In this document: one piece after another, positions 39,312 through 54,742 of the stretch
Layout: every line of letters starts with the position of its first letter
Numbering within the stretch: the stretch's first letter is position 1
Assembly: GCF_001457475.1 (NCBI RefSeq)
Contig: NZ_LN831029.1
Coordinates: 4,588,001 to 4,652,000 of the forward strand
Direction of reading: 5' to 3'
Source: Achromobacter xylosoxidans
GTDB taxonomy: Bacteria > Pseudomonadota > Gammaproteobacteria > Burkholderiales > Burkholderiaceae_B
DNA: 64,000 nt
Program-made: the position numbers and the translations under genes
Notes under the pieces: model-generated
The model's input: the letters and a program-made list of their open reading frames with translations, nothing else
Database searches by the model: none
Told to the model about the DNA's origin: nothing

Positions 39312-40331
39312 TCAGGCCACGCCCGCCGCCGCGTCCGCGGCTGTTCGCAACGGCCCCGCGGCACCCCGGACGGCGCCGGCCTCGCTGGAAAAATACGCCA
39401 CCGTGCGCGCCATGCCTTCGACCGGCGCGATGCGCGGCGTCCACCCGAGCCGCTCCCGCGCCAGCGAGATATCCGGGCAGCGGTGCGTCGGGTCGTCGAC
39501 CGGCAGGTCGCGATGCACCAGCGGCACGTTGGCGCCCGTCAGGGTGCGGACCATGTCCGCCATTTCCAGCATCGTCAGTTCCGCGGGATTGCCCAGGTTC
39601 ACCGGCCGCACGTCCGGCGGCACGCTTTCCATCAGGCGCACCAGGCCGTCGATCAAGTCGTCCACGTAGCAGAACGAACGGGTCTGCGTGCCATCGCCAT
39701 AGATGGTCAGTGGCTTGCCGGCCAGCGCCTGGACGATGAAGTTCGACACGACGCGGCCGTCATCGGGCGACATGTGCGGTCCATAGGTATTGAAGATGCG
39801 CGCGATGCGCACGTCCACGCCTTCATGCGCGGCGTACTCCATGAAGATGGTCTCGGCGCAACGCTTGCCTTCGTCGTAGCAGGAGCGCGGCCCCACCGGG
39901 TTCACGTGGCCCCAATAACCTTCGCGCTGCGGATGCTCCAGCGGATCGCCATAGACTTCGCTGGTGGACGCCTGCAGCACGCGCGCGCCGCAGCGCCGCG
40001 CCAGCTCCAGCAATTGCATGGCGCCCAGCACGCAGGTGCGCAACGTCTTCAAGGGATCGGCCTGATAGTGCACCGGCGAAGCGGGGCATGCCAGGTTGTA
40101 GATGCGGTCGACCTGCACATCGGCGAGCGGCTCGACGATGTCGTGGCGCACCACGGCAAAGCGCGGATGGGCCGCCAGCATCGCCACATTGCGCGACCGC
40201 CCGGTCTGGAAGTTGTCGACGCACATCACCTCCCAGCCGTCGGCAAGCAGGCGCGCGCACAGGTTGGAGCCGAGGAATCCCGCGCCGCCCGCCACCAGGG
40301 CGCGCCCCTTTGGCAAATTCATCATGTTCAT
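39312..40331 (-). CDS. UDP-glucuronate decarboxylase-like (UXS) NAD-dependent epimerase
   Basis: 339 residues, short-chain extended type. Rossmann motif [10 protein letters not shown], acidic NAD-binding D in [30 protein letters not shown], the active-site SEVYGDP and catalytic Tyr/Lys in [11 protein letters not shown]. The YDEGKR and [15 protein letters not shown] blocks are typical of UDP-xylose synthase rather than RmlB. It converts UDP-glucuronate to UDP-xylose via a 4-keto intermediate. Last gene of the ten-gene glycan operon; its start overlaps the preceding glycosyltransferase by ATGA. Confidence 0.85.
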
Positions 40332-41296
40332 GCCGCCTCCATAAGCGAGTCGAATGCGTTCAGCCAGTCGGCCACGAAGCGTTCCATGCCGAAGCGGCGC
40401 AGGGCGGTTTCACGCCCCGCCGCCCCCCACGCCCGGGCCAGTTCGGGTTCGGCCAGCAGTTGCCGCGCCACCTGCGCCAGGCGTTCGATGCGCGTGTCCA
40501 CGTAGCCGTTCACCCCGTTGCTGATGACGGTGGGCAGTTCGGTGGCGCCGAAGCCCACCACCGGCACGCCGCAGAGCATGGCCTCCACCAGCGACAGCCC
40601 GAGGCTGGCGTAGCGGATCGGGCTGAAGAAATAGCGGTAGCGCGCCAGGCAGGCCGCCACTTCCATATTGGGCACTTCTCCCAACCCGCCGAGGGCCTGC
40701 GAGTCCATGCCGATCAGGTCCAGCGGGGTCTGGGCGCGCATGCGCTCGAACAGGTCCAGGCCGATGCGACGGCCGCGGCGCGCCAGGTGGTTGACCACCA
40801 CGATGCCCCGCGCCACGCTGCCGTCATAGGTCACTCGGGGCGGCGGCACGCCATGTTCGATGACCCGCACCGGCATATCGCCGTTGTCCCACATGTGCGC
40901 GTTGAACGGCGTCACGTGGACCAGCAGGCCGCGCGGGTGGTGAAACGGATGGCGGGTGTCGGTGGGATGCGGTTCCGGCGGATTGTGCTCCAGGTAGGCG
41001 CTGGGCAGCGCGCGCTGCGCGTCGTCCAGCAGCAAGCGGGCATCCTCCAGGTTCTGGCGCGACTGGTACAGGACGCAGTCCAGGCGCTGGTCGCGCAGCG
41101 CGGCCGCCGGCACCTGGACGAGGTTGTCCCCCCAGGGGATGCGGCTGCCCAGCGCGCCGTACCCGGCCGGATTGCCCGGCAGTACCGGTATCACGAAGTC
41201 GTGCGGCACCTGTCCCAGGGCATAGAGATAGTTGCCGTGGACGTGCCAGGTCAGGATGCGCAGGCGTCGGCCGCGCGGCATGCGGGACTGGGTCAT
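40328..41296 (-). CDS. Glycosyltransferase (GT4-like)
   Basis: 322 residues. GT-B fold of group 1 type: N-terminal [20 protein letters not shown], then [20 protein letters not shown] and the C-terminal donor site [30 protein letters not shown] (E-x7-E like). The start at 41296 overlaps the preceding heptosyltransferase stop. Donor and acceptor are unknown; UDP-xylose from the adjacent UXS is one candidate. Confidence 0.8.
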
Positions 41297-42351
41297 GGCA
41301 GCCCCCGCGCCAATTGCTCCTGCGCCCGCGCCAGCACGTCGGCCACCGTGACCCGCAGCGCGCAGGGGTGGCCGATCGGGCAGCTTTCGTACGCGCACGG
41401 CCGGCACGGCACGGGCGCGGCCAGCACCACGTGGCGCCGGCTGTCGCGCGGCGCCCAGCGGCGCGCATCGCTGCCGCAGGCGACGACCACGCTGCGCGCG
41501 CCCATGGCCGCGGCCAGGTGCGAGACGCCGGTGTCATTGCATACCAGCAGGCGGCTGGCGCGCAACAGCGCCGCCAGGCTGCCCAGCGTGGTGGCGCCGC
41601 ACAGGTCGGGCAGCGCCAGGCCCGCGCGCTGGCGCAACTCGCGCGTCAATGCCCGCTCGGCGTCCGAGCCGGTCAAGGCGACCTGCCAACCCGCGCCGCG
41701 CAAGGCGCGCGCCACCTCGGCGTAGCGCGCCAGCGGCCAGCGCCGCGAACGCAGCCGCGCGCCCGGGTGCATCAGCACCAGGCGCGCCGGATCGAGCCCG
41801 TGGCGGCGCAAAAGGGCCTGCGCGGCGGCGGCATCTTCGTCGCTGCACGGGAATTCCAGGCGGTCGTCGGTGGCGGGCAGGCCCAGAAAGCGCAGCAGCG
41901 CCAGATAGCGCTGCGGCTCGGGCAGGTCGTCGGGCCAGCACAGGCGCCGCCCCTCGATCTGCGCGCCGGCGTCGGCCACGAATCCGCCCCAGCGGGCCGC
42001 GCCCAGCCGGCTCACGATCCGGTTCGAATGGACGCCGCTGCCGTGCATCTGCAAAGCCACGTCGGCCCGGGCCGCCCGCACCCGGCGAAAGAAGGCCGGC
42101 AATTCATCCGGCCGGCAGGCCTGCTCGGGGAACTCCGCAATGCCAGGGAATTCGATCAACTCGTCGACGTAGGCGTGGAAGCGGGCCACGAATTCGCGCG
42201 CGCCGGCCAGCCCTATCAACGAAATCCTGGCCTGCGGAAAGGCCTGGCGCAGGGCGCGCAGCGCCGGCACGGCGCACAACATGTCGCCCAGCTGCAGCGC
42301 CCGGAATACGGCGATCCGGTTCGCGGGAGGCGTGAGCAGCGCGGCCGTCAT
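41293..42351 (-). CDS. GT9 heptosyltransferase-like glycosyltransferase (1)
   Basis: 352 residues. N-terminal IAVFRALQLGDMLCAVPALRALRQAFPQA (GDxL...PAL) and C-terminal LMHPGARLRSRRWPLARYAEVARAL with LLVCNDTGVSHLAAAMG are classic GT9 (ADP-heptose:LPS heptosyltransferase). A Cys cluster near the end (CRPCAYESCPIGHPCALRV) is common in these. It couples to the next gene by ATGA. Probably adds a heptose to a glycan or lipid; the chain is not known. Confidence 0.87.
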   Translation of the reverse strand: MTAALLTPPANRIAVFRALQLGDMLCAVPALRALRQAFPQARISLIGLAGAREFVARFHAYVDELIEFPGIAEFPEQACRPDELPAFFRRVRAARADVALQMHGSGVHSNRIVSRLGAARWGGFVADAGAQIEGRRLCWPDDLPEPQRYLALLRFLGLPATDDRLEFPCSDEDAAAAQALLRRHGLDPARLVLMHPGARLRSRRWPLARYAEVARALRGAGWQVALTGSDAERALTRELRQRAGLALPDLCGATTLGSLAALLRASRLLVCNDTGVSHLAAAMGARSVVVACGSDARRWAPRDSRRHVVLAAPVPCRPCAYESCPIGHPCALRVTVADVLARAQEQLARGLP

Positions 42352-43334
42352 GGCCTGGCCCTGGCGAATCGCAACAGGCCGATGGCGCGCCAGCCGATCG
42401 ACAGCAGCGGAATGCAGGCGGACGTGATCGCCAGGTCGGCGACGTCGCGCACGGTCTGACGGGTGCCGCGCAGGCGCCGCCTGAAAAAAAGGGCAGTGAG
42501 CCCCAGCCACACCGCCAGCGCGGCCATGGCGCCGGCGCGCCATCCCAGCGCCGCCAGCGCGAGCGCGCACACCAGGGACGCGGTGACCGCCAGATAGAAG
42601 CGCGGCGGCCGCGCGCGGATGCGGCTGCGATACAGCAGCGGATACTTCCTGCGCAGCAGCATGTCGAACATTACCTTTTTCTGCATGCCCAGCCCGGCCG
42701 CGAAACCTGCCGGCCGCAGCGGGTGCGTCACCCGCGCGTGGCGCGCGCGCCGCACCGCCATGCCATGGTCGAGCAGGGCAAAATGCAGGTCGGAATCCTC
42801 GCGCCACGCCATGGTGTAGCGCGGGTCGAAGCCGCCCACCGCCACCAGCGCCGAACGTTTCACGAAGCAGTTGGCCGTGATGAACTCGGCCCGGGTCAGG
42901 CCGGCCGCGTCCCGCTCATAATCGTTGGGCGGATCCGGCAGCGGCATGTCGGTCTCCCCGGTCACCGCGGCGACATCCGCGTCCAGCGCGCGCACGCCGT
43001 GGCGCAGCCAATCCGGGTGGGCGATGGTGTCGTCATCCGTGAACGCGATGATTTCGGCCTTGGCGCCGCGCCAGCCGAGATTGCGGGCGCCGGCCGGCCC
43101 CCGGGTGCCGGACACCGGCAGGTACCGCAAGGCCGGCATGCCGCCCCATGCGCGCCGCAGCCCTTCCACCTGGCGCCGGGTGGCGGCGCTGGCGGCGTCG
43201 TCGCACACCAGCACCTCGTAGGCGTCGCGCGGAAAATCCTGGCGGGACAAGGCGGCCAGGCAGCGCGCCAGCAGCGCCGGCCGCTTGTAGGTCGGCACCA
43301 CCACCGAAACGGAAGGCGTCGCGGGCGCGTTCAT
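42348..43334 (-). CDS. GT2 glycosyltransferase with C-terminal membrane segment
   Basis: 328 residues. GT-A start VSVVVPTYKRPALLARCLAAL, AFTDDDTIAHPDWL (DDD metal motif), ITANCFVKRSALVAVGGFDPR and acceptor-site REDSDLHFALLDHG. Residues ~245-300 hold two hydrophobic helices (LAVTASLVCALALAALGW, AMAALAVWLGLTALFF) that anchor it to the inner membrane. Couples by ATGA to both neighbours. Confidence 0.87.
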   Translation of the reverse strand: MNAPATPSVSVVVPTYKRPALLARCLAALSRQDFPRDAYEVLVCDDAASAATRRQVEGLRRAWGGMPALRYLPVSGTRGPAGARNLGWRGAKAEIIAFTDDDTIAHPDWLRHGVRALDADVAAVTGETDMPLPDPPNDYERDAAGLTRAEFITANCFVKRSALVAVGGFDPRYTMAWREDSDLHFALLDHGMAVRRARHARVTHPLRPAGFAAGLGMQKKVMFDMLLRRKYPLLYRSRIRARPPRFYLAVTASLVCALALAALGWRAGAMAALAVWLGLTALFFRRRLRGTRQTVRDVADLAITSACIPLLSIGWRAIGLLRFARARP

Positions 43335-45070
43335 CGCGGCTTCTCCACCAGATAGGAACCGATGACCAGCGCGTCCAGCGGCGACGTCCAGAAGCACTCC
43401 ACCGCATCGCGCGGCGTGCATACCACCGGCTCGCCGCGGGTGTTGAACGAGGTATTGACCAGCACCGGCACGCCGGTCAGGCGCTCGAAGGCGGCCAGCA
43501 GGTCGTAGTAGCGCGAGTTCTGGTCGCGCCGCACGGTCTGCACGCGCGCGGTGCCGTCGATATGGCGCACCGCGGGAATGCGGCTGGCCCGGTGCGGCAG
43601 CACGTCGTAGACGAACAGCATGAAGGGCGCGCAGATGGCGTCCGCGCCGCGGCCGTCGAACCATTGCGTGGCGCGCTCTTCCATGACGACCGGCGCCACC
43701 GGCCGGAAGTCCTCGCGGTCCTTCAGCCCGTTCAGGCGCGCCTGCATGGCGCTGTCCAGCGGCGAGGCCAGGATGGAACGGGCCCCCAGCGCGCGCGGCC
43801 CGAACTCCATGCGCCCCTGGAACCAGCCGATGATCTTTTCCTGCGCCAGCAGCGCGGCGGTCTCGCCGGCCACGTCGTCGAGCCGCCGGAAATCCAGCTT
43901 GGCGCCGTACAGGAAGCGCTCGATCTCCTCGTCGCCATACGAAGGCCCCAGATACGCGTGCTCCATGGCCCATGCGCGCTTGCCGCCGCGCCGGTGATAG
44001 TCCACGTACAGCGCCGCGCCCAGCGAGGTGCCGGCATCGCCCGCGGCCGGCTGCACCCAGACGCTATCGAACGGGCCATCGCGCGCGATGCGGGCGTTCA
44101 TCACGCAGTTCAGCGCCACGCCGCCCGCCATGCTGAGATTGCGCGCGCCGGTTTTCTCGTGCAGCCACTGCGCCATGTGCAGCGCCGTTTCCTCCAGCAC
44201 GTACTGCAGCGAACTGGCGATATGCTTGTGCCTGTCCTCGAACGGCGCGCCGCGATGGCGCGGCGGACCGAAGCGTTCGGCCAGCCGCGCCGGCTGCACC
44301 GAATAGCCGCCCTCTTCCTCCAGCCGCAGGATATCGCGGAACTCCTTGCGGAATTCGGGCTTGCCGAACGAGGCCAGCGCCATCACCTTGTACTCGTCGG
44401 AAGAATGCAGGAATCCCAGGTAGCGGGTGACTTCCTCGTACAGCAGCCCCAGGGAATGCGGCAGGTCGATCTGCTTGAGCCGGGCGTACTCGCCATCGGA
44501 GAAATGGCCATAGCTGGTGGTGGTGCGTTCACCGCGCCCGTCCATGGTGAGCACGGCCGAATCCGCGCAGGGCGCCGCCAGGAACGCGCTGGCCTCGTGG
44601 CACAGGTGGTGATCCAGGAACACCCAGCGCTCCATGATGTGATCCAGCGTCAGGGCGTCGAAACGCGGCGACTTGAGGTGGTGCGGCACGCCGTCCAGCA
44701 GCTGGCGCGGCGCGTTCACCAGGTACGAAAGGAACAGCGGGTCCCAGGGCGATTCGCCCGCCGCGCCCAGGGCGGCGCGCGAAGGCTCCAGCGGCAGCGT
44801 GATGTCGCCGGCCAGCGGCCGGCTGCCTGCCAGCAGCGCCGGGTCATACGAGTAGACGATGTGGTCGACATCGCGCAGGCGGATGTCGCCCGCCGACAGG
44901 CAGTAATCGATCGCATGGTAGGGCAGCTGCCAGGTGGTGAACGGCACCGGCCGCTTGCCATGCTTGACGCGCGTGAAGCGCTCCTCCTCGGCCGCCGCGA
45001 CCACGGCGCCGTCGCGCACCAGGGTGGCCGAACAATCGTGATAGGCTGCGTTGATTCCTAGGGTAAACAT
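43331..45070 (-). CDS. NodU/CmcH-family O-carbamoyltransferase
   Basis: 579 residues. N-terminal Kae1-like half (LGINAAYHDCSATLVRDGAVV, DHHLCHEASAFLAAP with the His cluster, AGGVALNCVMNARIA) and C-terminal YrdC-like/carbamoyltransferase half (EFGPRALGARSILASP, REDFRPVAPVV, NTSFNTRGEPVVCTPRDAVE). It transfers a carbamoyl group from carbamoyl phosphate, via an adenylate, to a sugar hydroxyl. AAGGAG RBS at start 45070, 13 bp inside the preceding gene. It should decorate the glycan made by this operon. Confidence 0.92.
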   Translation of the reverse strand: MFTLGINAAYHDCSATLVRDGAVVAAAEEERFTRVKHGKRPVPFTTWQLPYHAIDYCLSAGDIRLRDVDHIVYSYDPALLAGSRPLAGDITLPLEPSRAALGAAGESPWDPLFLSYLVNAPRQLLDGVPHHLKSPRFDALTLDHIMERWVFLDHHLCHEASAFLAAPCADSAVLTMDGRGERTTTSYGHFSDGEYARLKQIDLPHSLGLLYEEVTRYLGFLHSSDEYKVMALASFGKPEFRKEFRDILRLEEEGGYSVQPARLAERFGPPRHRGAPFEDRHKHIASSLQYVLEETALHMAQWLHEKTGARNLSMAGGVALNCVMNARIARDGPFDSVWVQPAAGDAGTSLGAALYVDYHRRGGKRAWAMEHAYLGPSYGDEEIERFLYGAKLDFRRLDDVAGETAALLAQEKIIGWFQGRMEFGPRALGARSILASPLDSAMQARLNGLKDREDFRPVAPVVMEERATQWFDGRGADAICAPFMLFVYDVLPHRASRIPAVRHIDGTARVQTVRRDQNSRYYDLLAAFERLTGVPVLVNTSFNTRGEPVVCTPRDAVECFWTSPLDALVIGSYLVEKPR

Positions 45071-46170
45071 GGCATCTCCTTCCTGGCGGCGGGGGCATCG
45101 GCCCGCCCGCCGCCAAGCAATTCCCGCGCCGCGGCCGCGACGCGCTCGGGATCGACACCAGCCAGGCAGGCATGGTGGCCCTGCGGGCACACGCTGCGAT
45201 AGCAGTATCGGCAGGGAACGTCCTGGTTCAGCACGCGCGCGGCGGTCATCCAGGGGGTGTGCTGGGGATTGGTCAGTGCGTACAGATCCACCACCGGCCG
45301 CCCGAGCGCGGCGGCGATGTGCGCCGGCCCGCTGTTGTTGCAGATGAGAACGTCGGCCGCCTCCAGCACCGCGCCCAGCTCGCCCAGGCTGAGTTCGCCC
45401 GACAGGTCGATCAGGCCCGGCAGCAGCGGCCGCGCGGCGGCCAGGGCCGGCGCCAGCGCCGGGTCCTCATGGCCGCCCAGCAGCAGGATGCGGCGACCGT
45501 CGCCGCGCAGCGCGGTCAGCGCCCGCACCATCAGTTCCGCCGGATAGCGCCGCGAAGGGGCGGTGGCGCCGGCATGCGCGCAAATCCAGCCACCCGTCTC
45601 GGTCACGCCCTGGCGGTGCAGCTTCCAGGCCAGCGACACCCGGTCCTGCTGCCGCACCTGGAACGACAGGCCGGCATGGTCGGCGCGCGCCCCCACTTCG
45701 GCCACCAGGTCCAATTGCCGTTGCACCTCGTGGCGGATGCCGTCGGCGGGCTCCGTCTCGCGCACCCAGTCGGTGATGAGGCGGTAGGGATTCTCCCGGC
45801 AGTAAGCCAACACGCGCGGGATGCCGGCCAGGTGGCACAGCAGTGCCGCGGGCAGCGCGCTCTGGCTGTAGGCGGTGAACACCACCGCCGCGTCCGGCCG
45901 CAAGGCGCGCAGCCGCCCGATGGCGTCCGCGTCATCGGCATTTCCCCGCGACTCATTCTTGATCCACGCGGCGTCGTAGGCCAGGACGGTATCCAGCTCC
46001 GGCACGAACGGCGCCAGCCGCGCCCCGGAGGTCGAAGTCAGCAAGGACAGGCGGGTGGCGCCGGACTGGCGCAACGCCCGCAACGCGGGCGTGCACATCA
46101 GCACGTCGCCCATGTTGTCCAGCCGCACGCCGAGCACGTGGGCGCAGTCCTGCCACCGCGGCGCCATCAT
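45058..46170 (-). CDS. GT9 heptosyltransferase-like glycosyltransferase (2)
   Basis: 370 residues. VLGVRLDNMGDVLMCTPALRALRQSG, ICAHAGATAPSRRYPAELMV and VLICNNSGPAHIAAALGRPVV are GT9 hallmarks; a terminal Cys group (CRYCYRSVCPQGHHACL) again resembles the sister enzyme. The Met-Met start is preceded by GGGAGG. Overlaps the HAD gene stop by ATGA and the carbamoyltransferase start by 13 bp. With its paralogue it suggests two heptose transfers. Confidence 0.87.
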   Translation of the reverse strand: MMAPRWQDCAHVLGVRLDNMGDVLMCTPALRALRQSGATRLSLLTSTSGARLAPFVPELDTVLAYDAAWIKNESRGNADDADAIGRLRALRPDAAVVFTAYSQSALPAALLCHLAGIPRVLAYCRENPYRLITDWVRETEPADGIRHEVQRQLDLVAEVGARADHAGLSFQVRQQDRVSLAWKLHRQGVTETGGWICAHAGATAPSRRYPAELMVRALTALRGDGRRILLLGGHEDPALAPALAAARPLLPGLIDLSGELSLGELGAVLEAADVLICNNSGPAHIAAALGRPVVDLYALTNPQHTPWMTAARVLNQDVPCRYCYRSVCPQGHHACLAGVDPERVAAAARELLGGGRADAPAARKEMPCLP

Positions 46171-46790
46171 CCGCCTCCCGCCTGCCCGGACGGCGCCAAC
46201 GCTTGCGCCCGCGCCCTGTCTGCGCGCCCGCGCTCCGCCAGCACCCGGCGCGCCGCGGCATCCAGGTCGGGCGCGCGCGCATCCGGAACCCGCAGCGGCC
46301 CCTCGCGCCATTCGGTCTCGTTGCCCACGTCCAGCAACAGGCTACGGCAGCCGGCGCGGTGGCCGGCCTCGACGTCGTCGAGGATGTCGCCGATGAACCA
46401 GGACGCGGACAGGTCCAGGCCCAGCTCCGCGGCGGCCTGCAACAACAGGCCCGGCCTGGGCTTGCGGCAAGCGCACTCGACGGCGTAGCCGGCGACGCGG
46501 CCCTGCGGATGGTGCGGGCAACAGTAGAAACCATCCAGGCGCGCCCCGGCGGCGCGGAACATCGCCGCCAGCCGAGTCCGCACCGCCTCCAGTGCCGCCA
46601 GCGGGAACAGGCCCCGCGCCACGCCGGATTGATTGCTGATGACCACCAGCGCCACGCCGGCGGCGCCCAGGCGGTTCAGGCCGGCATGGGCCATGGGCGC
46701 ATACGCCATCCGCCCCGGGTCGACATTGAACGGGACGTCGACCAGCACGGTGCCGTCCTTGTCGAGGAACACCGCCGGCCTCAAGGCCAT
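46167..46790 (-). CDS. HAD phosphatase, GmhB-like (heptose bisphosphate phosphatase)
   Basis: 207 residues. HAD motif I FLDKDGTVL, motif II VISNQSGVARG, and the GmhB zinc-binding pattern Cys-x-His...Cys-x-Cys in CCPHHPQGRVAGYAVECACRKP, then IGDILDDVEAG for motif IV. GmhB removes the 7-phosphate of D-glycero-D-manno-heptose 1,7-bisphosphate on the route to ADP- or GDP-heptose. A second copy dedicated to this operon fits the two GT9 enzymes. A ~45-residue Arg/Ala-rich tail extends the usual length. Confidence 0.88.
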   Translation of the reverse strand: MALRPAVFLDKDGTVLVDVPFNVDPGRMAYAPMAHAGLNRLGAAGVALVVISNQSGVARGLFPLAALEAVRTRLAAMFRAAGARLDGFYCCPHHPQGRVAGYAVECACRKPRPGLLLQAAAELGLDLSASWFIGDILDDVEAGHRAGCRSLLLDVGNETEWREGPLRVPDARAPDLDAAARRVLAERGRADRARAQALAPSGQAGGG

Positions 46791-47509
46791 GACGTTTCCC
46801 GCATGGGCAGCACCATGATCTCGGGCACCACCGTCTCGGCCGGTTGCGTCAGCACGAAGCGCACGGCGCGGGCGACATTGGCCGGGTCCTGCAGCGTATC
46901 CACGTCGATGTCGGGAAAGCGGTCCAGCAGGAACGGGGTGCGCATGCCGCCGGCGATCACCGCGCTCACTTTCAGGCCTTCAGCCCGCAGTTCGGCATGC
47001 AGGGCATGCGACAGCCCCATCAGGCCCCACTTGCTGGCATGGTAGGCGCTGGCATTGGGCCAGGCGCGCCGCGCCGCCGTCGAGGCCACATTGACGATGT
47101 GGCCGCCCGGACTGAGAAGGTCCTTGGCCAGCTTGGCCATAAGGAAGGGGCCGGTCAGATTGGTGCGCAGCACGCGCTCCCAGACATCGGCGTCGAGCTT
47201 GCCGATGGGCGCGGTGACGTCGATGCCGGCACTGTTGACGACGGCATCGAGCCGGCCAAAGCGGCGCACCACGGCATCCAGCCCGTCCTGCACATCACGC
47301 GCCACGCCCACATCCATGACGCAGCCCATGACGTCCCCGCCTTCTGCCTGGAGCCGCTCGGCCAGCTGCTGCGCGCGGCGCTCGTCGATATCGGCCACCG
47401 CCACGCGCGCGCCCTCGCCCGCCAGCATGCTGCAAAGCGCCTGTCCCAGGCCGCTGCCGCCGCCGGTCACCAGCACCACCCGCCCTTTCAAACTATCGGA
47501 TTCCTGCAT
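46781..47509 (-). CDS. Short-chain dehydrogenase/reductase
   Basis: 242 residues, classical SDR: VVLVTGGGSGLGQAL cofactor motif, VVNSAGIDV (NAG), Ser in NVASTAARR and the YHASKWG catalytic pair. The D after VAVADIDE indicates NAD preference. Overlaps the HAD gene by 10 bp. Substrate unknown; probably a sugar or lipid intermediate of the glycan pathway. AGGAGC RBS. Confidence 0.87.
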   Translation of the reverse strand: MQESDSLKGRVVLVTGGGSGLGQALCSMLAGEGARVAVADIDERRAQQLAERLQAEGGDVMGCVMDVGVARDVQDGLDAVVRRFGRLDAVVNSAGIDVTAPIGKLDADVWERVLRTNLTGPFLMAKLAKDLLSPGGHIVNVASTAARRAWPNASAYHASKWGLMGLSHALHAELRAEGLKVSAVIAGGMRTPFLLDRFPDIDVDTLQDPANVARAVRFVLTQPAETVVPEIMVLPMRETSWP

Positions 47510-47524
47510 CTTTCGCTCCTGATC

Positions 47525-48796
47525 TCAAGCCGCCATGCGCGGCGCATGCCGATCCGGCCGGGCCGCCTGCGCCGCCATCTGCCGATACACCGCCAGCAAG
47601 TCCAGCCCGACGCGCTTCCAGGTGTAGAGTCGGCGCGCCCGCAGGCGTCCGGCCTCGCCCATGCGGGCGCGCAGGGCGGGATCGGCGGCCAGTTGGGCCA
47701 GCCGCTCGGCCAGGCTGTCCGGGTCGCGCGGCGGCACCAGGAAGCCGGTCTTGCCATGCACCACCGTGCTGCGGATGCCGCCGGTATCCGAACCCACCAC
47801 CGGCCGGCCGCAGGCCATGGCCTCGACCGGCGTGATGCCGAAGGGCTCGTACCACGGCGTGGTCACGAACACATCGCAGGCGCCGTAGTAGGTCGCCAGG
47901 TCATCCCGATGACGGCGGCCGGTGAACTCCACCCACGGCGCCACGCCCTCGTCCTGCGCGATCTGGCGCAGCCGCGCGATCTCGGGCGTGGCGGTGGCAT
48001 CGGCGTCGTCCGAATTGCCCCCCACCACGCACAGCCTGGCGTTGATGCCATGGCGATGGCGCAGGCGCCCGAGCGCGCGGATCACGTTGTCCACGCCCTT
48101 GCGCGGCACCATGCGGCCCAGCTGCAGCAGGGTGAAGTCCTGATGCTCCCACCCCAGCGCCTGCCGCGCCCGCGTCATGGGCCGGGGCGCCATCTCGGCG
48201 GCGTCGTAGCCGCAGGGCACGATGTCGATCCGGCGCGGGTCGGCGTCGTACAACGCCATCAGGTCGCGCCGGTCCTGCGGGCACTCGGCGATGATGCGGT
48301 CGGCGCGGCGCACGATCTCGGTTTCGATATCGAAGCGGCTGTCCGGGAACAGGTCGGCCTCCTGCTGGTGCTGGCGACGCACCTTGCCGAGCGCGTGGAA
48401 CGTCACGGCCAGCGGGATGCCGTAGCGCTGCGCGAGCGGCAGCGCGGCCCAGGCCGACATGAAGAAATTGGCATGAATGATGTCATAGGCCTTGTCCTGC
48501 CTGCCGGCATGGCGCAGCAGATAGCGCGAGAAATCATCCATGTAGGGCAGCATCTGCTCCTTGGGCAGATAGACTTCCGGCCCGGCCGGCACGTGCACCA
48601 CCTTGACCCCGGGCATCCAGGCGTGTTCCGGTTCCAGTTCCCGATTGTCCTTGCGGGTGAAGACGTCGACCTGCAGGCCGGCGCGCGCCAGTTCGCGCGC
48701 CACGTGCGCGACGTAGACGTTCTGTCCGCCACTGTCGACGCCGCCGGCAACCGCCAGCGGCGAAGCGTGTTCACTGATGATGGCGATCTTTTTCAT
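47525..48796 (-). CDS. GT4 glycosyltransferase (sucrose-synthase/MshA-like)
   Basis: 423 residues. GGVDSGGQNVYVAHVARELARAG is the GGxxGGQNVYV glycine loop of the MshA/sucrose-phosphate synthase group, HANFFMSAWAALPL the acceptor region, LLQLGRMVPRKGVDNVI the donor phosphate site and PWYEPFGITPVEAMACGRPVVG the E-x7-E motif. Its start overlaps the BON gene stop by ATGA, GGAGCGG RBS. This family uses ADP-, GDP- or UDP-sugars; donor not defined. Confidence 0.88.
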   Translation of the reverse strand: MKKIAIISEHASPLAVAGGVDSGGQNVYVAHVARELARAGLQVDVFTRKDNRELEPEHAWMPGVKVVHVPAGPEVYLPKEQMLPYMDDFSRYLLRHAGRQDKAYDIIHANFFMSAWAALPLAQRYGIPLAVTFHALGKVRRQHQQEADLFPDSRFDIETEIVRRADRIIAECPQDRRDLMALYDADPRRIDIVPCGYDAAEMAPRPMTRARQALGWEHQDFTLLQLGRMVPRKGVDNVIRALGRLRHRHGINARLCVVGGNSDDADATATPEIARLRQIAQDEGVAPWVEFTGRRHRDDLATYYGACDVFVTTPWYEPFGITPVEAMACGRPVVGSDTGGIRSTVVHGKTGFLVPPRDPDSLAERLAQLAADPALRARMGEAGRLRARRLYTWKRVGLDLLAVYRQMAAQAARPDRHAPRMAA

Positions 48797-49461
48797 TGTT
48801 CCGCTCCGGTTCGGACGGGCGCCCCGGCGATGCGGATGCGGTTGTCCACGTCCTGCACGCCAGCGCAGCTGTCGGTGCAGTCCTCGATGCGATGCTTGGT
48901 GCGGCGGTCCGGCACGGTGCCGGTCAGGGTGACGCAGCCATCGGCCACGTCCACCGACACGTCGCTCACGTCCAGGCCGCTGTGCGCCAGGTATTCGCAC
49001 ACAATCTCGCGCACGCGCTCGTCCGACCGCACATAGCCCTTGGGGTCGGTGCGTCCGGCCTGGCGCTCGCGCCATGAGGTCATGCCGCCCAGCGGTTCGC
49101 CGCGCTCGGCGGTGGCGAACGACATCATCTCGGCATCGTCGCGCCACGGCGGCCGGTTGCCGTAGAAGCCGCCGTCCTCGCTGCCGTACGAGTCGGGACC
49201 TGACGGCGCGGCGCGGCGAGACGGCTCGCGGCCGTACACCTGCTGGCGCTGATAGGAAGGATCCTCATTGCTGAAGCCGCCGTAGCTGCTCTGGCCCGGA
49301 TCCGCGCTGCGGCTGCGCGCGCCGGCATGCGTGCCGCGGGCGCCGGGCGCGGCGCGGGTGCCCTGGCCCTGGTAGCCATAGGACGGGGCCGGGTCCTGCC
49401 ATGGCTCGCGGTCGGGATCGTCCTGGTATTGGCGGGGCGCCTGTCCGGGTCGATGATTCAT
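48793..49461 (-). CDS. BON-domain protein with disordered N-terminus, head of glycan operon
   Basis: 222 residues. Residues 1-130 are a low-complexity Pro/Gly/Gln/Ser/Tyr region (PGQAPRQYQDDPDREPWQDP, GFSNEDPSYQRQQVYGRE) and residues ~140-215 form a BON domain (ERVREIVCEYLAHSGLDVSD, VADGCVTLTGTVPDRRTKHR, CAGVQDVDNRIRI). No signal peptide. AGGAGA RBS. Together with the GT4 (ATGA overlap) it opens the ten-gene operon. BON domains usually bind phospholipid or envelope polymers. Confidence 0.85.
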   Translation of the reverse strand: MNHRPGQAPRQYQDDPDREPWQDPAPSYGYQGQGTRAAPGARGTHAGARSRSADPGQSSYGGFSNEDPSYQRQQVYGREPSRRAAPSGPDSYGSEDGGFYGNRPPWRDDAEMMSFATAERGEPLGGMTSWRERQAGRTDPKGYVRSDERVREIVCEYLAHSGLDVSDVSVDVADGCVTLTGTVPDRRTKHRIEDCTDSCAGVQDVDNRIRIAGAPVRTGAEQ

Positions 49462-49637
49462 GTCGGCTCTCCTGTTGCGATTCAAGAAAAACTGCGGGTA
49501 TGGGCCCCGCGTGGATGCATCGATATCGCAAGTGCTGTGCCGAACCGCGATGCCGGGCGCGGCGGGTGGGGAGGACATGATGAGGCTGCGGCGAACGCCA
49601 TGCCGGCGCGGCGTCCGTGGCGCCGGGCGGACGCGAT

Positions 49638-49673
49638 CCGGTACTTCTTACTATGCCGTGTAAGAAGTGCCGG
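49638..49673. terminator. 14-bp hairpin downstream of ABC-REC gene
   Basis: CCGGTACTTCTTAC (49638-49651) pairs with GTAAGAAGTGCCGG (49660-49673), with one G.T pair and an 8-nt loop. It lies 5 bp after the stop of the ABC-transporter fusion and upstream of the BON/glycan operon, so it probably ends the ABC transcript. The rest of 49462-49678 shows nothing identifiable. Confidence 0.55.
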
Positions 49674-49678
49674 GCCGC

Positions 49679-52393
49679 TCAGGCGGCGGAAGCGCCGCGG
49701 GCGGGCGACGGCGGCAACAAGGTCCCGACGGTGGCCAGCAACTCGTTGGGATCGACCGGCTTGGCCAGGTGGACCTGGAATCCCGCCAGCAGGCTGCGCA
49801 ACCGGTAATCGGGACTGGCGTGGCCGGACAGCGCGATGGCGGGCAGGCGATGCGCCAGCGCCGCGCCGCGCTCGGCTTCGAGCGCGCGGATGCGGTCGAT
49901 CACTTCATAGCCATCGATATCGCCGAGCGACAGGTCGCAGATCAGCACCTGCGGCCAGCGCGCCGCCGGCAGGGCTTCGAGCGCGGCCAGCACCTGCTGG
50001 CCGTCGGCGTACTGCGCGACGCGCGCGCCCTGCTCGCGCAGGATCTCGGCGACCATCTCGCGCGCTTCGGGCTGGTCGTCGACAAGCACCACCGCCACGC
50101 CGTGCAGATCGGGCAGGTTCATGTCGGTGCGCAACGCGGCCGGCTCCACCGCGCGCACCGGGAAATCCACCGAATACGCCTGGCCGCCGTCGTTCGCGGG
50201 CGCGCCGTGGAACGCGCCGCCCTGGCGTTGCGCCTGCGCCGCCAACTGCGCCGGATCGATCGCCACCGCCGCCCGCAGCGCGTCGGTTGGATTCAGGTGA
50301 AAGTCAGCATCGGACAGCGCCGGGTCGCGGTCCGGTTCGCCGCGCCCGTCCGTCACCGTCAAGCGGGTCAGCGGCCCTTCGCGGTGCAGGCGGATGCCCA
50401 CGCGCCCGCCCGGCGGCGTGACCGCGATGGCGTGCAGGCACAGGCTCCACACCAGTTGCTGCAGCTCGCTGGGGTCGCCGGTGATGCGCGCGGCCTCGCC
50501 GCCGATCTGCGTGTACAGGTTGACGCCTTTTTCCTGCGCGGCCTCGCGCGAGGCGTCCAACACGCCGGCGACCACGGCGACCAGATTGACCGGCTGCCGC
50601 GTCGAACGCCCCTGCGCTTCTTCCAGGGCCGATTGCTGGCGCTGCAAGGCCCACATCTGCGCGTACATGCCCTGCCTGGCCAACAGCTCCTCGTGCCTGC
50701 CCTGCTCGACGATGCGGCCGTGGTCCAGCACCAGGATGTTGTGCGCGTGCACGATGGTCGACAGGCGGTGCGCGATGATCAGCGTGGTGCGGCCCGTGGA
50801 GATGCGCTGCAGTTCCGCCTGGATCGCGCGCTCGGTGCGCGTATCCAACGCCGAGGTGGCTTCGTCGAATACCATGATCGCGGGATTCTTCAGGATGGCC
50901 CGCGCGATCGCGATGCGCTGGCGTTCGCCGCCCGACAGCTTGACGCCGCGTTCGCCCACCGGCGTGTCGTAGCCGGCCGGCAGGCTTTCGATGAATTCGT
51001 GCACGCGCGCGCCCCGCGCCGCCTGGACCACCTGGTCGGACGTGGCGCCGGGCTTGCTGTAGGCGATGTTGTAGGCGATCGTTTCGTTGAACAACAACGT
51101 ATCCTGCGGCACGATTCCCAATGCGCGGCGGATGCTGCGCACATTGACCGCGCGCAGGTCTTGGCCGTTGATCGACACGCGGCCGCTGTCCACGTCATAG
51201 AAGCGGAACAACAGGCGCGCCAGGGTCGACTTGCCCGAGCCGCTGCCCCCCACCACCGCCAGCGTGGTGCCAGCGGGCACCGAGAAATCGATGTTCCACA
51301 GGATCTGCCGGCCCGGCTCGTAGCCGAAGCCGACGTTTTCGAAACGAATGTCCCCGCCCCCGGGTTCCAGGGACGGCAAGGCCGGATCATCGCCGGTCTC
51401 GACCGGCTGGCGCAGCAGGTCGCAGACGCGCTCCGCATTGACGAACGCCTCCTTGGCCTGGCGAAAGACCAGGCCCAGCGTGTTCAAGGGCAGGCAGATC
51501 TGGATAATGTAGGCATTGACCAGCACCAGGTCGCCGACCGTCATCTGGCCGCCCACCACCTGTTGGCCGGCCAGCACCATCACCGCCGCCACGCCGCAGG
51601 CGATGATGCCACTCTGCCCTACGTGCAGCCGCGACAGCGAGCGCTGGTTGCGCACGCCCACCTGGGCCCAGTCGCCCAGCACGCCGCCCAAGCGCTCGGC
51701 CTCCAGCCCTTCATTGGCATTGAGCTTGACCGCCTCGTAATTCAGCAGGCTGTCGACCATGCGGCCGCTGGCCCTGGAGTCCAGTTCGTTCAGACGCCGC
51801 TGATAGGCCATGCGCTTGCGCACCAGCACGCGGGTGTAGGCGGAATAGGCCGTGAAGGTGACCAGCACGATGAGCGCGAACCAGGCGCTGTAGCCCATCA
51901 CCAGGATCAGCACCACCGACACGATCTCCACCAAGGTCGGCAACAGCGTGAACAGGCCGGTTCCCAGCAGGAAACCGACACCGGTGGTGCCGCGCTCGAC
52001 GTCCCGCGCCAGCGCGCCGGTCTGGCGCGCGCCATGAAAGCGCGATCCCAGCCTTTGCAGCCGGGAAAAGACCGACACGGTGAAATCGGCGACCGTCCGC
52101 TGCACGACCTGGGAGAACACCACGTCGCGCAGTTCCGTGAATACGCTGCCGCCAAAGCGCACCAGGGCATACCCCAGCAGCAGGAATACCGGCAGCGTCA
52201 GCAGGCCGGGCGCGCTCAAGGTGTCGACGATGTGCTTGAGCAGCACGGGCACCAGCACCATCAGCAGCTTGGCGGCGACCAGCAGCGCCAGCGCGGCGGC
52301 CGTGCGTCCCCGGTACTTCCACAGGGCTTGCAGAATCGTGCGCGTCACCGCGTTGCGCGCTTCGCGGGCGTTTTTCGTGTCGGATCCGTTCAT
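49679..52393 (-). CDS. ABC exporter (Atm1-like) fused to degenerate HATPase and receiver domain
   Basis: 904 residues. Residues ~15-320: six-TM exporter core with the Atm1-like DSLLNYEAVKLNANE motif. Residues ~360-600: ABC ATPase with GGSGSGKST Walker A, LSGGERQRIAIARA signature and IMVFDEATSALD Walker B, all intact. Residues ~620-760: a histidine-kinase ATPase-like stretch (NLVAVVAGVLDASREAAQEK, GDPSELQQLVWSL, TPPGGRVGI, LTVTDGRG) with no H-box and no N-box Asn (NLLxNA replaced by SLCLHA). Residues ~775-900: a receiver domain with VDDQPEA, phospho-acceptor LICDLSLGDIDGYE, ALSGHA and LAKPVD all conserved. So the exporter appears regulated by phosphorylation from an outside kinase. An ABC-HK-REC fusion is unusual; the cargo is unknown. 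Confidence 0.9.
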   Translation of the reverse strand: MNGSDTKNAREARNAVTRTILQALWKYRGRTAAALALLVAAKLLMVLVPVLLKHIVDTLSAPGLLTLPVFLLLGYALVRFGGSVFTELRDVVFSQVVQRTVADFTVSVFSRLQRLGSRFHGARQTGALARDVERGTTGVGFLLGTGLFTLLPTLVEIVSVVLILVMGYSAWFALIVLVTFTAYSAYTRVLVRKRMAYQRRLNELDSRASGRMVDSLLNYEAVKLNANEGLEAERLGGVLGDWAQVGVRNQRSLSRLHVGQSGIIACGVAAVMVLAGQQVVGGQMTVGDLVLVNAYIIQICLPLNTLGLVFRQAKEAFVNAERVCDLLRQPVETGDDPALPSLEPGGGDIRFENVGFGYEPGRQILWNIDFSVPAGTTLAVVGGSGSGKSTLARLLFRFYDVDSGRVSINGQDLRAVNVRSIRRALGIVPQDTLLFNETIAYNIAYSKPGATSDQVVQAARGARVHEFIESLPAGYDTPVGERGVKLSGGERQRIAIARAILKNPAIMVFDEATSALDTRTERAIQAELQRISTGRTTLIIAHRLSTIVHAHNILVLDHGRIVEQGRHEELLARQGMYAQMWALQRQQSALEEAQGRSTRQPVNLVAVVAGVLDASREAAQEKGVNLYTQIGGEAARITGDPSELQQLVWSLCLHAIAVTPPGGRVGIRLHREGPLTRLTVTDGRGEPDRDPALSDADFHLNPTDALRAAVAIDPAQLAAQAQRQGGAFHGAPANDGGQAYSVDFPVRAVEPAALRTDMNLPDLHGVAVVLVDDQPEAREMVAEILREQGARVAQYADGQQVLAALEALPAARWPQVLICDLSLGDIDGYEVIDRIRALEAERGAALAHRLPAIALSGHASPDYRLRSLLAGFQVHLAKPVDPNELLATVGTLLPPSPARGASAA

Positions 52394-52481
52394 GGCCAGG
52401 CCTCCTCGCCGGTGAGCGGGCGTGGCCAGCAACCCGCGTTCCGCGCCGGCGGCGCCCGGCCTGCGCGCGCCGACCTTGCCC

Positions 52482-52516
52482 GCCCGCGTGCCGCCCAGGA
52501 CGGGCGGCACGCGGGC
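52482..52516. terminator. 15-bp perfect GC hairpin
   Basis: GCCCGCGTGCCGCCC and GGGCGGCACGCGGGC pair without mismatch over 15 bp around a 5-nt loop, 7 bp after the stop of the 159-aa gene. It separates that set from the ABC fusion 90 bp downstream. No T-tract, but stem strength favours termination. Confidence 0.55.
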
Positions 52517-52523
52517 CTGGATG

Positions 52524-53003
52524 TCAGCCGCGCAGGGCGGCTTCCCGCCGTCCGCGCACGACGGCCTTGAACAGATGCGCCACCGCGGCCGCGAAGGCCT
52601 CGTCGAACCAGGGATTGGCGCCGCTCACCGCCACCACGATGCCGTCGATGCAGACGCTGCCCCATACCGTGGAATCCTTGGCCTGCAGCAAGTGCGGGCG
52701 CGCCACGATGACCTCGTGGCTGGACAGGCCGGTGCGCCAGCTCAGGCGGGCCTTGCCGCGGGCGAACGCGCCATAGTCGGCATCCCAGCGCTGTGGATCG
52801 CCCACGCTTTCCTCGTACAGGATGGCGCTGGGAAAATCGCATTCGCCCGGCCTGGCCAGCGGATTCATGACGACCACGTGCAGAAAGCCGCTTTCGCCGA
52901 CGCGGGTGTCGGCGCGCGCGGCCTCCAGCATGGGCAGGGCCAGCCGCACGGCCTGGGCGGCCGCATCGCGTTCCCAATAAGCGGCCAGGGGCAGGGATTT
53001 CAT
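52524..53003 (-). CDS. GlcG/HbpS-like protein
   Basis: 159 residues, no signal peptide. Two segments recall the GlcG/HbpS fold: ARGKARLSWRTGLSS (a 'xxKAxTAxxxxxxS'-like helix) and GSVCIDGIVVAVSGANPWFDEAFAAAVA (a G-x-D-G-x-V-V-A-V-S-G strand-turn). That is a tentative fold assignment; HbpS binds heme and senses redox stress, and GlcG is unassigned. It lies last in the PIG-L/GT2/this unit, AAGGAG RBS, 28 bp after the GT2 stop. Confidence 0.6.
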   Translation of the reverse strand: MKSLPLAAYWERDAAAQAVRLALPMLEAARADTRVGESGFLHVVVMNPLARPGECDFPSAILYEESVGDPQRWDADYGAFARGKARLSWRTGLSSHEVIVARPHLLQAKDSTVWGSVCIDGIVVAVSGANPWFDEAFAAAVAHLFKAVVRGRREAALRG

Positions 53004-53031
53004 GGTGTTCTCCTTGTCGATGAAAGGACCT

Positions 53032-53919
53032 TCAATGACGGACGTCGTCGCGCCAGACGCGCCGCAACGCGTGGCACAGCTCGGGCGGCACCGGGCGGCG
53101 ATGACGCCGGACCCAGCGCCATTGCGCCAGCGCGTCGGCGCAGGCGCGGGTACGGGGCCGCCAGCCGGGCAAGGCGCGCAGCACCGCCCAGCTGCGGGCC
53201 AGCGCCAGACCGATGGGCAGGCGCAGCCATGCCGTCCACAGGGCATTGCGCGCCAGCAGGCGGCGCCGTTGCGGCGCATCGCGCTGCGCGGACGGCCAAT
53301 GGTGGGTCTGCACGGCCGGCGCGTAGGCAATGCGCCCACCCTCGGCACGGATGTCCAGCGCCAGCAGCGCTTCCTCGCCGCCGATGAAGAAACGCGGCCA
53401 GTAGCCGCCCGCGCGCCGGAAGGCGTCGACCCGCATGACGCAGGCGCCAGCCATGAAGCCGACCAGCTCCGGCCCGACGCCGGCCAGCGGCGGCAAGGGA
53501 CTGCGCGCCATTGCCGCGCAGGCCGGATCCAGCCGCGCCTCGGGACCAACCCGCACCTGCGCATTGAGCACCGCGAGCGATTCATGCCGGTCGAGGATAT
53601 CGGCCGCGCGCGCCAGCGCCTCCGGCGCCCACCAGGTGTCGTCGTCGCAGAACGCGACATAGGGCGTGGTCACGCGCGCCACGCCCAGGTTGCGGCCGGC
53701 CGCCCCCAGGTTGGCGCCGGCCCGCAGCACCTGCGCCTGGGGAAACTCGCGCTCGATGGCATCGGCGCTGCCATCCTCGCTGCCGTTGTCCACCACGATG
53801 ATGGCGTAACGGCGTGGCAACGAGACCAGCCGCTCCAGCGTGCGGCGAAGCTCCTCGCGCCGGTTGCGGGTCAGCACCACGATGGCGATGCGCGGGTCCG
53901 GGAGCGCCACGGCGGTCAT
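53032..53919 (-). CDS. GT2 glycosyltransferase (rhamnosyl/galactosyl type)
   Basis: 295 residues. IAIVVLTRNRREELRRTLERL, VDNGSEDGSADAIEREF, GAAGRNLGVARVTTPYVAFCDDDTW (DDD) and FIGGEEALLALDI (EE acceptor motif) give a GT-A GT2 enzyme. C-terminal basic tail. Overlaps PIG-L stop by ATGA, so the two are coupled. Donor not known. Confidence 0.87.
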   Translation of the reverse strand: MTAVALPDPRIAIVVLTRNRREELRRTLERLVSLPRRYAIIVVDNGSEDGSADAIEREFPQAQVLRAGANLGAAGRNLGVARVTTPYVAFCDDDTWWAPEALARAADILDRHESLAVLNAQVRVGPEARLDPACAAMARSPLPPLAGVGPELVGFMAGACVMRVDAFRRAGGYWPRFFIGGEEALLALDIRAEGGRIAYAPAVQTHHWPSAQRDAPQRRRLLARNALWTAWLRLPIGLALARSWAVLRALPGWRPRTRACADALAQWRWVRRHRRPVPPELCHALRRVWRDDVRH

Positions 53920-54626
53920 CCGTCCACCAGGTGCCAGTAGCGTTCCTCGCGGCCCAGGTCGGCCGGCGCGCGTTGCAGACCCTTGAGCTGTGAGGCGTAC
54001 GCCGCCACCGCCCGGGGCTTGGCGCGCGTATCCAGCGCGAAGTCGGCCGGCGCGGCGATCACGCCCCGGCCATGCAGCCGCGCGAAACGCGCCTGGACGA
54101 TGCCCGGCAGGCAACGGTACGGCACGTCCTCGTAGGCCAGCCAGGCCGGCCCGCGCCAGGCATCGCGCACCATCAACCCCGCATCGCTGACGCGGACGTG
54201 GTCGGCATGCAGCAGGCCAAGCGGAATCGCCACCGCGTCCGGCCGCAGCTCGGCCAACGTGCGCATCAACGCCTCGGTCAGCGCCGGCAGGCAGGCGTCG
54301 GCGCACGCGGCGTACTGGCTGTCGAGAAATCCCAGGGCCCGGCCGCGGCCGCGCACCAGGGCCATGGCCCTGGCATCTTCCCGCCGCCGTTCCCGCATCG
54401 CCTCGGCCGCGCTGCCGAAGCCGCAACGGCGGTCCCAATCCGTCAGCACATGCGCGGCGTCCGGCATGCCGGTGTAGACGGTCACCACCGTGCTGCCCGG
54501 CCGCGCGCCCAACAGCGCGCCGCAGCTCAGCACGGCGTCGTCCAGGTGGGGCGACACGACCACGATGCGGGGCATCGATGGCAGGATTTCGCGCGCGGCG
54601 GCGGCGGGGGAATATGAAGCCGGCAT
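53916..54626 (-). CDS. PIG-L family N-deacetylase
   Basis: 236 residues. Zinc and catalytic motif SPHLDDAVLSCGALL (PHxDD) and C-terminal HADHVRVSDAGLMVRDA (H-x2-H). The family deacetylates N-acetylglucosaminyl or related lipids (MshB, BshB, LmbE-like). Adjacent GT2 overlaps by ATGA, so the pair may build a deacetylated amino-sugar conjugate. Divergent from the MscS gene; start at 54626 because the frame upstream is non-coding. Confidence 0.87.
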   Translation of the reverse strand: MPASYSPAAAAREILPSMPRIVVVSPHLDDAVLSCGALLGARPGSTVVTVYTGMPDAAHVLTDWDRRCGFGSAAEAMRERRREDARAMALVRGRGRALGFLDSQYAACADACLPALTEALMRTLAELRPDAVAIPLGLLHADHVRVSDAGLMVRDAWRGPAWLAYEDVPYRCLPGIVQARFARLHGRGVIAAPADFALDTRAKPRAVAAYASQLKGLQRAPADLGREERYWHLVDG

Positions 54627-54742
54627 GTTCAAGCCATTCCTGTCGATCTGACTGAGCGCCACAGCAACTCCCGTGCCTCGCCCGGCGCCAGCGGCGGCAC
54701 GGCATTTGCTGCCCGCCGGCATTCACGCATGAAGGAGACGAT

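Follow-up and report, generated by a model that had tools for sequence, protein, structure and literature searches.

What a receiver domain might do at the end of an ABC (ATP-binding cassette) exporter is the question raised by a gene at 49679..52393, on the reverse strand of a 64,000-nucleotide stretch of Achromobacter xylosoxidans DNA. This stretch, denoted here as the window, corresponds to positions 4,588,001-4,652,000 of a genome made of a single contig of 6.81 Mb. The output of two-component systems is mostly regarded as transcription or second messengers, and substrate and ATP as what drives ABC exporters. The original prediction, derived from the sequence alone, was that this gene joins an ABC exporter to a degenerate kinase ATPase and an intact receiver, and its coordinates and strand proved right: a single open reading frame (ORF) of 904 residues, with its ATG at 52393, its stop codon at 49679-49681, no internal stops and an AGGAGG 7 bases 5' of the ATG, encodes an ABC exporter half (residues 1-590), an HATPase-like part and a receiver. 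Whether the product is a glycan exporter tuned by its own receiver, which would be phosphorylated in trans by a kinase, we regard as an evenly balanced question. Judged from sequence, the fusion is well supported as a family and unproven as a switch; its parts are known and their combination was not found described. The original prediction had itself allowed that the architecture might already have been reported with a defined function; no receiver-tailed ABC exporter was found in the titles and abstract openings of the open-access papers listed in searches for it, and closed journals or other wording may hold one.

Exporter half and tail

Two Pfam families account for the exporter half, namely ABC_membrane at residues 34-300 (E 2.7e-30) and ABC_tran at 367-514 (E 3.8e-32), and Response_reg (PF00072) matched residues 768-889 with 72.3 bits (E 4.7e-20), above its cut-off of 30.2. 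Between them, HATPase_c gave a weak partial match (residues 639-690, E 0.0025; 18.7 bits, under the cut-off of 26.4), and the 15 families that came up at E 1 or better included neither HisKA nor FHA; the HMMER filters hide most matches above E 0.1. An antisense open frame of 967 residues (49667-52570, forward strand) overlaps the gene and is taken as a shadow frame of GC-rich coding DNA.

The same parts share one ORF in each of 33 different full-length sequences, a set comprising the window, 10 sampled genomes and 24 loci from species genomes, minus two duplicates. The alignment of these 33 rows leaves out L080 and L083 (taken as equal to L072 and L073, whose contigs have identical lengths), L092 (a partial frame) and the plasmid rows L134-L136. 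In the nucleotide-binding domain (NBD), the Walker A motif (382-390), Q430, the signature (486-492), D510/E511, D517 and H542 are invariant and R491 nearly so, the motif names being labels that we take to apply at these positions. With its ATPase motifs intact, the fusion should be able to pump. By sequence, the closest solved structures to residues 12-587 are of the Atm1, ABCB25 and ABCB7 types (E 1e-150 to 7n58). Nevertheless, nine near-fixed positions separate the fusion clade from 26 ordinary Atm1-like paralogues, among them residue 257, which is His in all 33 fusions and Asn in all 26 sampled paralogues. This position lies in the transmembrane LNxGQ motif, whose Asn presumably has a role with glutathione. 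An ordinary Atm1-like paralogue, 49% identical, is also present in the window's genome. The possibility that the fusion is an MsbA orthologue was rejected: it scored 399.1 bits with TIGR02203 against a curated cut-off of 602, and a separate MsbA gene, scoring 867 bits, lies elsewhere in the same genome.

The nature of the linker was addressed by aligning the 33 tails with the hybrid kinase L138, the best non-fusion match in a class-wide sample, and with four other kinases. L138 retains intact NLLSNAIKFT, DTGAGI and GLGLGL boxes and shows, in our reading, the order REC-PAS-HisKA-HATPase-REC. In the fusions, the framework is kept and the nucleotide boxes are broken: none of the 33 has an unbroken G1 box (DxGxG) or the F-box Phe, and the full set of N, G1, F and G2 boxes expected of a hybrid histidine kinase is thus absent from the tail. 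The earlier claim of an HATPase lacking both H-box and N-box Asn holds for the window's protein, which has no HisKA match and carries His in the N-box, but it does not extend to the family, since the Asn is kept in 11 of the 33 fusions and gone in 22. On this evidence the linker is a broken homologue of the HATPase found in hybrid kinases. Given that HisKA and the nucleotide boxes are both missing, the tail should not phosphorylate itself, and a kinase or a small phosphodonor would have to act in trans.

The receiver, in contrast with this broken linker, is as intact as had been claimed. D772, D773, D820 and K878 are identical in all 33 fusions, and position 856 is Ser in 20 and Thr in 13. A predicted model of the tail alone (mean pLDDT 86.6, pTM 0.53) comprises a leading helix, an alpha/beta ATPase domain and a receiver, and with it Foldseek placed histidine kinases first among solved structures (E 2e-15 to 1e-9), including the hybrid kinase ShkA and the pseudokinase DivL. 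The whole-model TM-scores were only about 0.34, which we attribute to rows covering part of a two-domain model. As the VIA-align rows span the receiver alone, the HATPase fold rests on Foldseek and homology.

Both tail domains are under purifying selection. Across seven pairs chosen by us, some of which share a member, dN/dS was 0.05-0.33 for the HATPase-like and receiver parts, well below 1 in all seven, and 0.01-0.22 for the exporter parts. The linker is held more loosely, and it is also less conserved, with a mean share of the commonest residue of 0.565 versus 0.799 in the NBD. The junction between exporter and tail is free of indels in an 11-row alignment.

Spread of the fusion and its glycan neighbourhood

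The gene lies in a run of same-strand genes (39312-54722) encoding an NAD-dependent sugar enzyme, glycosyltransferases of families 2, 4 and 9 (GT2, GT4 and GT9), a carbamoyltransferase, a GmhB-like phosphatase, a dehydrogenase, a BON-domain protein, a conserved protein and a PIG-L deacetylase (Table 1). Among 38 fusion loci, the fetched stretch held matches to the carbamoyltransferase in 36, the second GT9 in 36, the HAD phosphatase in 35, GT2 in 35, GT4 in 31 and PIG-L in 30; in the two remaining loci (L076 in G422, L078 in G348), a close carbamoyltransferase was found at most 5 kb beyond that stretch. These 38 loci include L080, L083, L092 and L134-L136, and the 35 loci used below for kinases include L080, L083 and L092, so that neither set is fully independent. 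On plasmids of Paraburkholderia, Burkholderia multivorans and Caballeronia, most of the cluster genes flank the fusion, but differently ordered and oriented. A close carbamoyltransferase (at least 58% identity, a line set by us) occurs in 11 of 399 genomes of the order, and all seven sample genomes in which a fusion was seen are among them. Clusters for the lipopolysaccharide (LPS) core in Pseudomonas contain PIG-L, heptosyltransferases and the carbamoyltransferase WapO together with a lipid A-core transporter, and serve a core bearing heptose and carbamoyl groups (PMC8005017). In view of this likeness and of the gene set, the product of the cluster is expected to be a heptose- and carbamoyl-containing surface glycan.

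The tail matched in 121 of 399 genomes of the order; of the best 30 of these 121, taking one locus per genome, seven were fusions, and the other 23 resembled the tail but showed no exporter half. The latter are taken as hybrid kinases, L138 from the class sample being the sole relative read whole. Non-fusion places in the order are about 27-39% identical to the 315-residue tail. The genus member G800, with a tail match of 86%, lies outside the loci fetched. At least 25 of the 55 species-genome loci listed carry the fusion, 24 of them at full length and L092 alone as a partial frame. The hosts among the loci listed are Achromobacter, Bordetella, Pigmentiphaga, Cupriavidus, Paraburkholderia, Burkholderia and, as the only one outside Burkholderiales, one Solimonas (L086); the nearest named relatives of the window's fusion are in Achromobacter and Bordetella. 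Seven of 25 matching plasmid records cover at least 80% of the fusion's length, three were seen as a single annotated gene, and the product names on the seven, where given, mention an ABC-transporter domain only. The class sample gave tail matches in 6 of 369 genomes, the window's own included, and no exporter half was found beside the other five within stretches with 1.5-kb flanks, of which only L138 was read over the whole frame. The phylum sample gave 6 of 398: G319 and G348 are known fusions, L187-L189 coincide with L053, L060 and L061, where no exporter half had been seen, and L190 was left out.

Exporters of this kind without a tail were also encountered. Those of G272 and G176 (L203 and L204) are 59% and 56% identical to the fusion exporter, both have His257, both adjoin glycosyltransferase genes of the same cluster type, and no tail match was present in the fetched stretches round them. 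In a tree of 30 rows, made up of 14 of the 33 fusions, the two tail-less His rows and 14 ordinary ones, these two group with the fusions, apart from the ordinary paralogues, with support of 100/100. The branch of the fusions themselves received 63/10 in that tree and 0.84 in a quick tree; in a 62-row tree, where all 33 fusions lie on one side of a branch, it received 41/36 and was present in 42% of bootstrap trees. On these values, the order of tail-less and tailed forms is not settled and only the joint separation is firm. A single origin of the fusion is possible, and gain of the tail within the His-type exporter lineage is favoured, although the tree does not decide between gain and loss. 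Since tailed and tail-less His257 exporters both lie by glycan genes, the His-type glycan-cluster exporter exists in both forms, and the two tail-less ones offer natural controls for the contribution of the tail.

Some further observations concern the surroundings. An inverted repeat, ACTTCTTAC-N8-GTAAGAAGT, lies at 49638-49673, between the fusion's stop codon and the BON gene; it has CCGG on either flank and no T run, its core is found once in the genome, and it may possibly be a terminator or a regulatory hairpin. A gene for an MscS-type mechanosensitive channel (54743-55834, forward strand) stands at the cluster's edge and was matched in 3 of the 38 loci. In G421 (L184:10482-12192), a glycan cluster without the exporter fusion is followed by two kinase/receiver-tail matches on opposite strands. 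On the B. multivorans plasmid L135 (8772-13941), genes for a zinc alcohol dehydrogenase, a PAS hybrid kinase and a BON protein lie near the fusion, gene types that recall, in type only, a low-oxygen-activated locus of Burkholderia cenocepacia (PMC6127331).

Table 1. Positions of the fusion gene, its parts and its neighbours in the window.
Feature	Position	Strand	Basis or remark
Whole gene: ABC exporter, degenerate HATPase and receiver, 904 aa	49679..52393	-	ORF, Pfam
Transmembrane domain, residues 34-300, Atm1-like, His257	51494..52294	-	Pfam and paralogue comparison
NBD, residues 347-590	50624..51355	-	Pfam and 33-row alignment
Predicted helix joining exporter and tail, residues 576-597	50603..50668	-	Models and 11-row alignment
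Degenerate HATPase_c-like domain, residues 600-750, no HisKA, G1/F/G2 boxes lost	50144..50596	-	Alignment, model, Foldseek
Receiver domain, residues 766-892	49718..50098	-	Pfam, alignment, model
Codon of predicted phospho-acceptor Asp820 (Asp in 33/33)	49934..49936	-	Alignment
NAD-dependent epimerase/dehydratase; relatives in two annotated clusters named UDP-glucuronic acid decarboxylase	39312..40331	-	
GT4 (bounds approximate)	40328..41350	-	Name from annotated relatives alone
GT9, heptosyltransferase-like, first of two	41293..42348	-	
GT2	42348..43424	-	
Carbamoyltransferase	43331..45070	-	Name from annotated relatives alone
GT9, heptosyltransferase II-like, second (5' bound approximate)	45058..46170	-	
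HAD-IIIA phosphatase, GmhB-like (heptose bisphosphate phosphatase family; under model cut-off)	46167..46790	-	
Short-chain dehydrogenase	46781..47509	-	
GT4 (5' bound approximate)	47525..48799	-	
BON-domain protein, directly downstream of the fusion; matched in 10/38 loci	48793..49578	-	
Conserved protein, upstream of the fusion (start approximate); matched in 20/38 loci	52524..53003	-	
Glycosyltransferase	53032..53919	-	Name from annotated relatives alone
PIG-L family deacetylase	53916..54722	-	

How the tail might act

These observations can be integrated in a model in which the protein would be the half-transporter of a homodimeric ABC exporter, belonging to a pathway for a heptose- and carbamoyl-containing glycan or glycolipid and moving one of its products across the inner membrane. 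Its C-terminal tail would descend from a hybrid histidine kinase, whose HATPase and receiver end became attached to an exporter lineage serving the cluster. In this model, the receiver would be phosphorylated on Asp820 by a histidine kinase in trans, and the resulting change would pass through the pseudo-ATPase and helix 576-597, which form a covalent path from receiver to exporter in the predicted models, to the NBD, altering the rate of export in one direction or the other. The HATPase part, devoid of HisKA and of its nucleotide-binding boxes, would now act as spacer and transmitter. Of the earlier idea of a transporter switched by a two-component signal through a pseudo-kinase linker, the material parts have thus stood (intact motifs, a broken homologous linker, the receiver and purifying selection), and the switching itself we infer.

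Several results weigh against a receiver-tuned glycan exporter. By sequence, the exporter is nearest to Atm1/ABCB7-type proteins and to no known glycan flippase. The predicted model of the full-length protein is only moderate (pLDDT 74.4, pTM 0.51), which makes the coupling path a guess. The spread within the genus is narrow, the tail being matched in 6 of 43 genomes at E 1e-60, and no fusion was seen in 4 of the 11 genomes with a close carbamoyltransferase (G261, G094, G176, G421), one of which, G176, has the tail-less exporter, so that the cluster works without a tail there. With regard to the kinase, a HisKA-HATPase core outside the fusion was present in 9 of 35 loci versus about 4 expected, with no consistent partner; the expectation is based on how densely HisKA matches occur in 11 genomes (21-49 in each), so that two different detection methods are being compared. 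Apart from the fusion's own HATPase-like part, no kinase core was detected in the whole window.

A kinase consistently encoded with the fusion was accordingly rejected as a rule, and orphan receivers are common. A kinase of the order CheB-CheR-PAS-HisKA-HATPase-receiver does adjoin the cluster in G013 and G021, and is a candidate partner in those relatives. It was observed by the PIG-L end of the cluster (L069:13621-17868, L134:19787-23869, and also near L070), with 1360-1415 residues in the two proteins scanned. The window's genome gave no match to it at E 1e-60.

Among the alternatives, the flow of the signal could be reversed, with the exporter acting as a flux sensor that reports its transport state to a two-component system; depending on transport, its receiver tail would accept phosphate from a kinase or bind to one. 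Transporters that inform kinases exist, as in Pst and Bce; moreover, the tail is kinase-derived and a kinase core lies near a minority of the loci. However, a pure reporter would not obviously need the phospho-acceptor set, yet its five residues are kept in all 33 fusions, and the missing conserved kinase partner counts here as well. We consider this account unlikely. Slightly less probable is that the receiver serves another pathway as a phosphate sink or docking module, exerts no control over transport, and uses the exporter merely as a membrane anchor. This would accord with the many loci that lack a linked kinase, with the lower conservation of the linker relative to the exporter half, and with the tail-less relatives, whose existence implies that export does not need the tail; but every full-length fusion examined bears its tail on the same exporter clade, and the join is free of indels in 11 rows.

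The resemblance to Atm1, ABCB25 and ABCB7 raises another alternative, that of an exporter of glutathione conjugates or for metal stress, located in the cluster by chance and tuned to stress by the receiver. The replacement of the paralogues' Asn by His in every fusion, the ordinary Atm1-like paralogue kept by the genome and the linkage to glycan genes in 36 of 38 loci all speak against it, and we deem it improbable. Finally, the degenerate HATPase part and the partial frame of L092 might suggest a read-through, an assembly error (both of which the original prediction had foreseen) or a decaying relic joining two genes, a notion with hardly any probability left and rejected here for the family, given the same ORF in 33 distinct sequences and the low dN/dS of both tail domains.

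Returning to the exporter tuned by its own receiver, the broader proposal, which we put forward tentatively and at somewhat less than even confidence, is that of a dedicated ABC exporter family of Burkholderiales in which a two-component phospho-signal would act directly on the transport of a surface glycan: a captured hybrid-kinase tail would have brought in the receiver, its dead kinase domain would serve as transmitter, and control would be fast and independent of transcription. What the comparative data add to the view from a single window is the status of a family and the conserved glycan neighbourhood. If the proposal is true, the pump itself would come under phospho-Asp control, in a glycan pathway of Burkholderiales that live in soil, associate with plants or act as opportunists, and a pseudokinase domain would have been retained as a mechanical part.

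Relation to known systems

Transporter and two-component parts in one chain are found in CbrA, a transporter-kinase fusion in which the transporter part feeds the kinase output; the protein described here differs in bearing a receiver on an exporter with intact ATPase motifs. The hybrid histidine kinases, with ShkA, RetS and GacS among the fold matches and L138 by sequence, share with it the order HATPase-receiver and the fold, but the fusion has no HisKA, has lost the nucleotide boxes and carries an exporter in place of the sensor. With the Atm1/ABCB7-type exporters (bacterial Atm1, 4mrn; plant ABCB25, 7n58), the likeness resides in the sequence of residues 12-587 and in the intact NBD motifs, whereas the His in place of the LNxGQ Asn, the HATPase-receiver tail and the glycan-cluster context set the fusion apart. 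MsbA, or the lipid A-core transporter of LPS-core clusters, probably offers a parallel in role, as an ABC exporter beside genes for PIG-L, a carbamoyltransferase and heptosyltransferases in the Pseudomonas clusters (PMC8005017), although the fusion falls under the MsbA model cut-off and the genome's own MsbA is encoded elsewhere. Lastly, Rv1747 is described as an FHA-containing ABC transporter, probably an exporter, modulated by phosphorylation via PknF (PMC3908365). Phosphorylation acting through a fused phospho-signalling module makes the two alike in logic, not in kind: Rv1747 works with FHA domains and a Ser/Thr kinase, and the fusion, with no FHA match up to E 1, has a receiver instead.

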